Part shown: positions 9,060 to 17,378 of the stretch, in pieces | How positions within the stretch are numbered: position 1 is the stretch's first letter | Layout of the letters: every line of letters begins with the position of its first letter | DNA from: Cytophagaceae bacterium | GTDB taxonomy: Bacteria; Bacteroidota; Bacteroidia; Bacteroidales; Marinilabiliaceae | NCBI GenBank assembly: GCA_031285765.1 | Contig: JAITVO010000093.1 | Coordinates: forward strand, 1 to 37,250 | DNA: 37,250 nt | Direction of reading: 5' to 3' | The notes under the pieces: model-generated | Seen by the model: the letters and a program-made list of their open reading frames with translations, nothing else | Databases searched by the model: none | What the model was told of the DNA's origin: nothing | Translations under genes and position numbers: made by a program

Positions 9060-12000
9060 ATGTATTGGTATAAAAATTTACGAAACGCAGGCTATATACT
9101 GCTTTTGCTGTGTGCAGTGTGGATGGTTGCAGTTGATGTGCAGGCGCAAAACAGCGACGAGCCGTCGGCGCGGATGCAGAGAAAACTCGAAAATGAACTG
9201 AGAAAACAGCTGAAGAACAGCGACGTAATATTTTCGCATCTGAAACATCTTGGCAAAATAAAAGCCGACAGCGCCGGTATTGATATTGAGAATAAAATTA
9301 TCCGCATCCATCTGTCGCCTGCGTTTACGCATTTGCCGGTAAGGCAACAGTTGATTGACGAAATTGCAGGGCAATATGCAAAATACATCGACGAACAGTT
9401 TGAAGATTACACGCTGCACCTTTACAGCAGGGGTGCAAAGGCTGAAACTTTTATTCCACCATTTTTTAACAGCGGCAAAGCTGTTTACGGCACTGCCCGA
9501 GCCGTTGCTGCAAAGTGCAAATATCCTGTTGTGCAGCGGCAATCATTGTTCCCGAAAGGGTTAAGCGGACGGCACATTGCGCTGTGGCAAAGCCATGGAC
9601 TGTATTACGAGGCAAAGCTGGACAGGTGGGAATGGCAGCGTGCCGGGCTGTTTCAAACTGTTGAAGACCTGCTTACAATGTCATTTGCCATTCCATACCT
9701 TGTGCCGATGCTCGAAAATGCCGGCGCCAACGTTTTTATTCCGCGCGAAAGGGACGTGCAGCCACGCGAGGTGATAATTGACGGCAACGGCTCTACGGGC
9801 AATTCGGAAATAATAGTTGTAAACGATGGCAGCAACCGGTGGCAGCTTGCCAAAGGCGGTTTTGCAGCAAAGGATACGCTTTTTGATAACGAAAATCCTT
9901 TTGCGAAAGGCTCGCATTACACCGTTCAATCGGCAAGAGCTACTAATGCACGCCTGTTTTATGTGCCCGACATTGCCGAAAGTGGCAATTACTCCGTATA
10001 TGTTTCGTGGGCACAGCACGCCGACGCCATTGAAGATGTGGACTGCACGGTGAGCCATGCGGGTGGCGCCGATCACTTTGGTCTTAACCAGAAAATGGCG
10101 GCGGGTACATGGATTTATCTGGGAACTTATTATTTTAATAAAGGAAAAGATTTTTACGGAGGCAGAATCGAAATCAGTGCGCAAAACAGTACAAAAGGAA
10201 CTGTTTCGATTGATGCTGTTCGCTTTGGCGGAGGCATGGGAAACGTGGCACGGAGCGCTGGCGACACGGTTGTTCAACGCCTGTTGAGCGCAAAGAGCGA
10301 TACCGTTCCGCCATTGTACAAAAAAAACTGGCAGCTGAGCGGCAAACCCCGATATATGGAGGCTGCGCGATATTATTTGCAATACGCAGGAATGCCCGAT
10401 ACTGCTGTTTACAGTCATAACAAAGGCATGGACGATTACCGCGACGATATTACTGCGCGTGGCGAATGGGTTAATTACCTTACGGGAGCTGTGCATCCGG
10501 CTGACAGCCTGCAAACAAAAGGGCTTGGCATTCCTGTCGATTTGTCGTTTGCTTTTCATACCGACGCAGGCGTTACGCAGTGCGATTCGGTTGTCGGAAC
10601 GCTTGCAATTTACAGCTCCGGGCGCAACAACGGCAGTTTTACGGATGGAACATCCAAACTGAAAAGCCGCGACCTTGCCGACATCGTGCAAACGCAAATT
10701 GTGGACGATGTTTGCATGCTGTACAATAAAAAGTGGACGCGACGCGCTATGTGGGACAAGCTCTATTCCGAAGCATGGCGACCCAACACGCCAGCAATGC
10801 TGCTTGAGCTGCTTTCGCATCAAAACATGGCCGACATGCGTTACGGGCTTTTGCCTCAATTTCGCTTCGATGTGAGCCGCGCCATTTACAAAGGCATTGT
10901 GCGTTACCTCGAAGGAAGCGACGCCATTGTTCAGCCATTGCCGCCAACGCATTTGGCAATAGAAAGAAAGGAAGGCAAAACGGTGCGCATTACGTGGAAA
11001 CCTGCGAGCGACCCGCTCGAACCATCGGCAGAAGCCGCAAGCTACAAAGTTTATATCCGTAAGGAAAATAAAGGTTTTGGAAGCGGGATACTTTGTGATG
11101 AACCTGTATTGGAACTCGAACTGGACGAATGGCAAACCTGTTACGACGTAAAAGTTACAGCTGTTAACGATGGCGGCGAAAGCTTTGCAACCGAAACGCT
11201 TTCGGTTGCGCTGTTGCCAGCCAATTGCCCTGCTGTATTGATTGTAAATGCCTTTACGCGCACCAGCGCGCCTCCGTTTTTTACTGCCGACTCCACAGCT
11301 GCCGGAATTGCATGGTGGAACGAGCATGGCGTACCTGCCGGAATTGACTATGGAATGACCGGATTTCAGTACGATTTTGACCGCCGCTCGGCGTGGCTCG
11401 ACGACGACAGTCCGGGCTTTGGCGCAAGCCATGCCGACATGGAAGGAAAGCCTGTGCGTGGCAACACATTCGATTTTGCTGCAACGCACGGAAAGGCGTT
11501 TCGCAATGCCGGCTATTCGTTTGTGTCGGTAAGCCGCGATGCTTTTGAAAACAGGCATTTCGATGCTTCGGGTTACAAAGCTGTCGATATTATTTTTGGA
11601 GAAGAAAGAGGAACATCCAGCTATAAGCAGCCCGAATGTAAACAATTCAGAGTTTTTAGCGACGGGATGATAGACGCCATTGAGCGTGTGATTAAAGCGG
11701 AGGGCAACATCCTTGTTTCGGGCGCATACATCGGCACCGACGGCGTTGAAAACCGTGATGAAAAGGCTATTGCTTTCGCAAAAAAGAGTTTGGGTTTTGC
11801 ATGGCGCACTAATCATGCCGACAACCGGGGCGAAGTGAAGCCAACCGCCGAAGCCGCCTCACTGTTTCCGGCGCTCATCAGCTACAACGCCGGCTATCGC
11901 AGCGATTGCTACACGGTAGAATCGCCCGACGCAATTGAGCCCGACGGCGAAAAGTCGGTAAGAATATTTCGCTACGCCGGCAACAGCCGTAGCGCAGGCG

Positions 12001-12131
12001 TAGCTTTTACCGGCAAAAAACACAAAGCCGTTACGCTCGGTTTCCCCATAGAAACTGTTATTGACAAAGAACAGCTCAACGGACTGGTAAAAGGGTGCAT
12101 GGTGTTTTTTGAAGAGGAGCAAATGCAGTAG
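9060..12131 (+). CDS. Secreted amidase_3-like protein with golvesin/xanthan-lyase-like domain and FnIII domain
   Basis: Signal peptide MYWYKNLRNAGYILLLLCAVWMVAVDVQAQ from ATG 9060; amidase-like H/E/H/E motifs; golvesin-like segment ending VSIDAVRFGGG; FnIII-like PTHLAIERKEGKTVRITWKPASDP. The ORF-track start 8943 lies in a repeat. Confidence 0.8.
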   Translation: MYWYKNLRNAGYILLLLCAVWMVAVDVQAQNSDEPSARMQRKLENELRKQLKNSDVIFSHLKHLGKIKADSAGIDIENKIIRIHLSPAFTHLPVRQQLIDEIAGQYAKYIDEQFEDYTLHLYSRGAKAETFIPPFFNSGKAVYGTARAVAAKCKYPVVQRQSLFPKGLSGRHIALWQSHGLYYEAKLDRWEWQRAGLFQTVEDLLTMSFAIPYLVPMLENAGANVFIPRERDVQPREVIIDGNGSTGNSEIIVVNDGSNRWQLAKGGFAAKDTLFDNENPFAKGSHYTVQSARATNARLFYVPDIAESGNYSVYVSWAQHADAIEDVDCTVSHAGGADHFGLNQKMAAGTWIYLGTYYFNKGKDFYGGRIEISAQNSTKGTVSIDAVRFGGGMGNVARSAGDTVVQRLLSAKSDTVPPLYKKNWQLSGKPRYMEAARYYLQYAGMPDTAVYSHNKGMDDYRDDITARGEWVNYLTGAVHPADSLQTKGLGIPVDLSFAFHTDAGVTQCDSVVGTLAIYSSGRNNGSFTDGTSKLKSRDLADIVQTQIVDDVCMLYNKKWTRRAMWDKLYSEAWRPNTPAMLLELLSHQNMADMRYGLLPQFRFDVSRAIYKGIVRYLEGSDAIVQPLPPTHLAIERKEGKTVRITWKPASDPLEPSAEAASYKVYIRKENKGFGSGILCDEPVLELELDEWQTCYDVKVTAVNDGGESFATETLSVALLPANCPAVLIVNAFTRTSAPPFFTADSTAAGIAWWNEHGVPAGIDYGMTGFQYDFDRRSAWLDDDSPGFGASHADMEGKPVRGNTFDFAATHGKAFRNAGYSFVSVSRDAFENRHFDASGYKAVDIIFGEERGTSSYKQPECKQFRVFSDGMIDAIERVIKAEGNILVSGAYIGTDGVENRDEKAIAFAKKSLGFAWRTNHADNRGEVKPTAEAASLFPALISYNAGYRSDCYTVESPDAIEPDGEKSVRIFRYAGNSRSAGVAFTGKKHKAVTLGFPIETVIDKEQLNGLVKGCMVFFEEEQMQ

Positions 12132-16933: not shown

Positions 16934-17378
16934 TTTACTCATGTTACGCAACAATGATATCGGGGGAGCACAGAGCAGTGGTTATGTAACACAGATACGT
17001 GGTTATGTAACACGGATACGTGGTTGTGCAGCACGGATACGTGGTTGTGTAACACGGATACGTGGTTATGTAACACGGATACGTGGTTGTGCAGCACGGA
17101 TACGTGGTTGTGCAGCACGGATACGTGGTTGTGTAACACGGATACGTGGTTGTGCAGCACGGATACGTGGTTGTGCAGCACGGATACGTGGTTGTGCAGC
17201 ACAAAGCAGCCCCTTGTAAATGGTTAACAATTGAAACTTAAAGGCGCTTAAAAGCAACAAACTGTAAGTGGCTTATCTATCTTGAAAAATTAAACAATGC
17301 GTATATCAAACTATTACCTGTTGAACAAAACAGGCAACATACTCACAGCAACACAACAGATGGCGTAACATCGGTTAC
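16934..17378. mobile_element. TGCGTAACAT-terminated inverted-repeat element carrying the minisatellite (445 bp)
   Basis: TTTACTCATGTTACGCA at the left, TGGCGTAACATCGGTTAC at the right. Confidence 0.45.
16978..17202. repeat. 21-bp minisatellite, 10.7 copies (GTGGTTRTGYARCACRGATAC)
   Basis: Ten full 21-mers plus a 15-nt partial unit read directly; variation at only four positions of the unit. Confidence 0.97.

Follow-up and report, generated by a model that had tools for sequence, protein, structure and literature searches.

The gene at 9060..12131 on the forward strand of the window (the whole 37,250-nucleotide stretch of DNA analysed here) probably encodes a secreted zinc-dependent N-acetylmuramoyl-L-alanine amidase of the Amidase_3 fold that is dedicated to the salvage of peptidoglycan fragments. 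In the predicted structure, the chain of this fold appears to be cut between its second strand and its second helix by a Golvesin_C domain. The reading draws on the domain order, four invariant residues, a fold match, an insert that is fixed in the full-length relatives and the salvage-operon context of those relatives; from these we infer zinc binding, catalysis, the substrate and the role of the insert. The enzyme class is already known, and the split architecture together with the pathway assignment appear undescribed in the literature searched, from which most subscription journals were excluded.

Domain layout of the predicted protein

The intact open reading frame starts with the ATG at 9060, ends with the stop codon at 12131 and encodes a protein of 1023 amino acids. 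Residues 1-29 (9060..9146) contain a hydrophobic stretch followed by VQA/Q, and residues 2-30 form a helix in the AlphaFold2 model. This region is read from the sequence as a Sec signal peptide and the protein is taken as secreted; a hydrophobic N-terminus was present in 83% of the ORFs of the split-amidase family. A small alpha/beta domain spanning about residues 35-125 (9162..9434) of the model, which had no match in the Pfam scan, precedes the N-terminal part of the predicted amidase fold (about residues 168-241; 9561..9782). The inserted golvesin-like beta-sandwich covers about residues 245-395 (9792..10244) and the C-terminal part of the amidase fold about residues 455-622 (10422..10925), and these are followed by a fibronectin type III domain at residues 628-714 (10941..11201; Pfam fn3, E 1.2e-5).

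The C-terminal residues 716-1018 (11205..12113) did not match any Pfam family and seem to resemble a class I glutamine amidotransferase. The Foldseek match to 3fij_D (E 1.1e-4) was obtained with the full-length model as query and would belong to this domain, which apparently lacks the nucleophile Cys and has SGAYIGTD at the site. A PADLOC search gave no match, and the single NCBIfam match was judged to be due to chance.

The predicted amidase fold, its putative active-site residues and the golvesin insert

The original prediction had described an Amidase_3-like catalytic domain split by a golvesin-like domain, with all four expected active-site residues present. The motifs that it quoted were all found in the ORF where it had placed them: IALWQSHGLYY contains H179, TVEDLL...PRERD contains E202 and R231, VDLSFAFHTDAG contains H500 and TPAMLLELLSHQN contains E583. 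The conservation of these residues was monitored in an alignment of 64 sequences comprising the query and 63 relatives (36-48% identical to it), which came from one scan of GTDB contigs that returned 80 loci, nearly all from Bacteroidota. H179 (codon 9594..9596), E202 (9663..9665), H500 (10557..10559) and E583 (10806..10808) were invariant in 64/64 sequences, as were G180, R231 and the run KLDRWEWQR (residues 186-194). The sequence thus has the His-Glu-His ligand order followed by a catalytic Glu, as in Amidase_3, and the invariance and the modelled fold together suggest that zinc would be held by H179, E202 and H500 as first, second and third ligands, with E583 as the catalytic residue. The region of the first His is unusual, with SHGxYYExKLDRWEWQR in place of the canonical GHGGxDxGA. 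In addition, KLDRWEWQR (window 9615-9641) is invariant although its loop was modelled with low confidence (pLDDT below 50 at residues 187-192), and this loop perhaps becomes ordered only upon binding of a substrate or partner.

The Pfam scan that had been proposed for the prediction matched its golvesin part clearly and its amidase part below the cut-off. Golvesin_C (PF25275) was matched at residues 282-389 (E 7.2e-20, profile 26-130 of 132) with 71.8 bits against the Pfam cut-off of 31.6 bits, whereas Amidase_3 (PF01520) was matched in its C-terminal half only, at residues 497-614 (profile 72-173 of 174, E 8e-4), with 19.9 bits, so that the whole-protein score falls under the curated cut-off of 27 bits. 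A profile match that starts at position 72 would result from an insert that leaves the first 70 profile positions on its other side. The ligand Glu and the second His are separated by 54-55 residues in 23 canonical Amidase_3 proteins of the same phylum and by 298 in the split protein, which indicates that approximately 243 residues have been inserted. When residues 237-454 were deleted in silico, the Amidase_3 score of the query increased from 19.9 to 24.0 bits (cut-off 27); removal of the insert from four family members gave 20.3-29.5 bits, of which one homologue, at 29.5, was above the cut-off, and in the spliced homologue L032 the Amidase_3 match spanned the junction (profile 35-173). The hhalign comparison with the canonical profile found the C-terminal half at E 2e-4 to 1e-3 with low probability values and aligned E583 with the catalytic Glu of the canonical LVELGF, while a column-shuffled control gave no match. 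The N-terminal half did not match the canonical amidases in this profile-profile comparison, and its assignment as an amidase half is suggested by the invariant residues, the order of the elements and the structure model.

The AlphaFold2 model of the full protein had a pLDDT of 88 and a pTM of 0.91, and that of residues 154-624 a pLDDT of 88 and a pTM of 0.89 (range of pLDDT 88.0-88.5). In this model the insert is flanked by the secondary-structure elements of Amidase_3 in their proper order, with strand 172-177, helix 202-220 and strand 224-226 before it, and helix 459-475, strands 495-500 and 515-518, helix 534-554, strands 564-566 and 579-583 and helix 599-621 after it. H179 lies after the first strand, E202 begins the first helix, H500 ends the third strand and E583 ends the last strand. 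The suggested Foldseek comparison of residues 154-624 with the PDB returned the golvesin domain of 6f2p first and then many Amidase_3 enzymes, including AmiC2 (5emi, E 1.6e-6, rmsd 2.6), CwlD (7rag), a C. difficile amidase (4rn7), AmiB (8c0j), CwlV (1jwq), AmiC (4bin), AmiA (8c2o), LytH (7tj4) and Rv3717, the set having probabilities of 0.95-1.00. Most of these amidase alignments spanned about 130-180 columns, probably those of the C-terminal half alone. A sequence search of the PDB found the golvesin end of 6f2p and fn3 domains and, when a profile was used, a weak match to LytH (E 0.23). The invariance, the element order and the Foldseek matches together thus support a split Amidase_3-like domain, the fold being indicated by Foldseek for the C-terminal half and by the order of modelled elements for the N-terminal half.

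The amidase-region fragments of the 63 relatives were all 435-525 amino acids long, and therefore every one of them carries the insert. When 393 Bacteroidota genomes were searched with a profile, 41 of them yielded a total of 42 full-length matches, nearly all running end to end over the model, and no insert-free relative was found in these genomes. All other matches were limited to or around the golvesin part within other proteins, which indicates that golvesin is a shuffled module. The fold of the insert also resembled CBM35/CBM6 in Foldseek. In Amidase_3, the strand ends bear the active site, and from this known topology the insert would exit the fold after strand 2, at the edge where the ligands lie. 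The golvesin domain would most likely act as a clamp or lid for the glycan strand beside the zinc. Six further matches were on unannotated faecal contigs recorded as "Bacteriophage sp.", and full-length relatives were encoded in MT836367, MT836053, MT836381, MT835805 and MT835912; these contigs are probably bacterial DNA fragments in phage records and were left out of the analysis.

The split protein is like the canonical Amidase_3 enzymes (CwlD, CwlV, AmiC, AmiA/B, LytH and Nostoc AmiC2) in the order of its elements, its four predicted residues and its Foldseek match. It differs from them in that strand 2 and helix 2 are separated by an interruption of about 243 residues, in the motifs around each ligand and in carrying fn3 and GATase-like domains as well. 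E. coli AmiA, AmiB and AmiC are also known to have an added segment close to the active site, an autoinhibitory one in their Amidase_3 core. That segment is short and helical and lies after the third ligand and before the catalytic Glu, whereas the insert of the split protein is a whole domain between the second and third ligands. The Golvesin_C domain of the Paenibacillus xanthan lyase 6f2p belongs to the same domain family as the insert, as given by the score of the latter to PF25275, but it is found at the C-terminus of the lyase and not inside a catalytic domain.

Genomic context and alternative functions

The original prediction had suggested in passing a link of the gene to an adjacent polysaccharide export locus. 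In the window it does stand upstream of a predicted membrane protein, a Wzy_C ligase/polymerase and glycosyltransferases, and the membrane protein looks like a flippase, although it has no Pfam match. None of the other genes of the window matched the peptidoglycan-salvage set, and the gene here is outside such an operon. A link to export was not supported, and the adjacent locus is taken to be incidental, because the context conserved among the relatives is peptidoglycan salvage. Their neighbours include a MurQ etherase (TIGR00274), a BadF-family (MurK-like) kinase, GT2, DUF4922 and SpoIID/LytB proteins, an AmpG-like permease, NamZ, an SSF symporter and a phosphoesterase with a beta-propeller, and at least one member of this set was present in 55 of the 70 related loci that have 4 kb or more of flank (SpoIID in 37, AmpG in 25, MurK in 24, NamZ in 24 and MurQ in 21). 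In the nearest relative found (50% identical), NamZ, AmpG, SpoIID, DUF4922, GT2, the amidase gene, MurK and MurQ occur together. The genome of the window has AmpG (54% identical), a MurK-like kinase (45%), NamZ, SpoIID, GT2 and DUF4922, all located on contigs other than that of the window. No MurQ was detected in the genome, a MAG of 89.6% completeness. DUF4922 and GT2 are usually adjacent in the salvage operon (L001:5840-8270 and related loci), and the two are also close together in the genome of the window, on contig C287 (L196).

This context was weighed against other functions. An active Amidase_3-fold enzyme that acts on another bond or glycan, such as a glycopeptide or secondary-polymer amidase or a peptidase, and that sits in the salvage operon by chance, is considered unlikely. 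The first-His loop, HTDAG and LLELLSHQN of the split protein do differ from the canonical GHGG, SIHaN and LvElGF, and the fact that KLDRWEWQR is so strongly conserved points to a specialised site for the substrate; however, the neighbours are mostly peptidoglycan-salvage genes, and the PDB matches of amidase fold that carry names are cell-wall amidases. A housekeeping amidase that works on the cell's own sacculus in division or remodelling, with the salvage link being secondary, is still less probable. Such a role is established for the Amidase_3 enzymes AmiA/B/C, and the operon arrangement is absent from the genome of the window, but a canonical Amidase_3 match above the cut-off was found in 26 of 26 sampled genomes, with two in that of the window, and the occurrence of the split family in just 41 of the 393 Bacteroidota genomes is unlike that of a core division gene. 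It is very improbable that the protein is a pseudo-enzyme whose amidase fold was retained to bind or sense peptidoglycan: such a state seems to apply to the C-terminal GATase-like domain, but the four predicted catalytic residues are the same in all 64 divergent sequences, and a loss of catalysis would not have preserved them. A polysaccharide (xanthan) lyase, as in the annotation of the presumed Tannerella forsythia counterpart, is hardly credible, as the match to the Paenibacillus enzyme 6f2p is limited to its C-terminal accessory domain (residues 945-1035) and no catalytic lyase domain was found by Pfam scan, PDB sequence search or Foldseek.

A putative amidase step in peptidoglycan salvage and the T. 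forsythia operon

As a salvage amidase, the split protein would act in the periplasm or outside the cell and cut the amide that links MurNAc to L-Ala, as expected from its family, and the peptide-free glycan pieces would then pass to the exo-muramidase NamZ. Uptake would follow through AmpG for disaccharides and through a MurT-type symporter for MurNAc, after which MurK and MurQ would act inside the cell. A hydrophobic N-terminus was present in 31 of 32 NamZ proteins. The SpoIID, DUF4922 and GT2 proteins of the operon had no signal peptide, a strongly hydrophobic N-terminus being seen in 1 of 37 SpoIID proteins, and they probably act inside the cell. The SpoIID domain, which is of lytic-transglycosylase type, may thus work in the cytoplasm on imported fragments. 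A periplasmic SpoIID acting on amidase-denuded glycans, like the SpoIIP/SpoIID pair, was also considered and dropped, since the operon SpoIID, DUF4922 and GT2 proteins lack a signal peptide. SpoIID/LytB proteins without a signal peptide were seen at L001:8278-9609 and at 36 other loci.

In T. forsythia, a single transcript has been described that covers Tanf_08345 ("xanthane lyase"), followed by two "gtf" genes, lytB, ampG and ybbC, and extends to murTKQ (PMC5388701). The order amidase-GT2-DUF4922-SpoIID-AmpG-NamZ in three related loci (L041, L045 and L058) fits Tanf_08345-08370 of this ampG operon (PMC5388701); they share the gene order of the ampG/murTKQ operon, and the gene of the window stands outside an operon of this type. 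The gene order suggests that Tanf_08345 is an orthologue of the window protein. According to a second report, AmpG is required by T. forsythia for growth on complex sources and extracts yield disaccharides only; its authors inferred a strong periplasmic amidase activity (PMC7670621). A literature search on Tanf_08345 turned up just these two reports. The passages of PMC7670621 drawn on here name no gene for this activity, and those of PMC5388701 and PMC7670621 assign Tanf_08345 no function beyond its "xanthane lyase" annotation. From the gene order and the logic of its domains, the split amidase would be the natural candidate for the T. forsythia amidase. Whether the family is a distinct one, whose active site is completed across a glycan-clamping insert and which supplies the periplasmic amidase step of salvage in Bacteroidota, among them T. 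forsythia, which is auxotrophic for MurNAc, we regard as evenly balanced.

With the split amidase, the activity inferred in T. forsythia would have a gene that can be put to the test, and a misleading "xanthan lyase" annotation would be corrected. It is also an example of a catalytic domain whose ligand set is broken by a fold of carbohydrate-binding type. Peptidoglycan fragments that come from Bacteroidota of the gut and mouth act as signals to the host, and an enzyme that would break muropeptides at the first step of salvage is therefore of wider interest.

Elsewhere in the window, a 21-base tandem repeat of 10.7 copies (GTGGTTGTGCAGCACGGATAC) was observed at 16978-17202, downstream of a glycosyltransferase gene, and it can be read as a degenerate repeat peptide.
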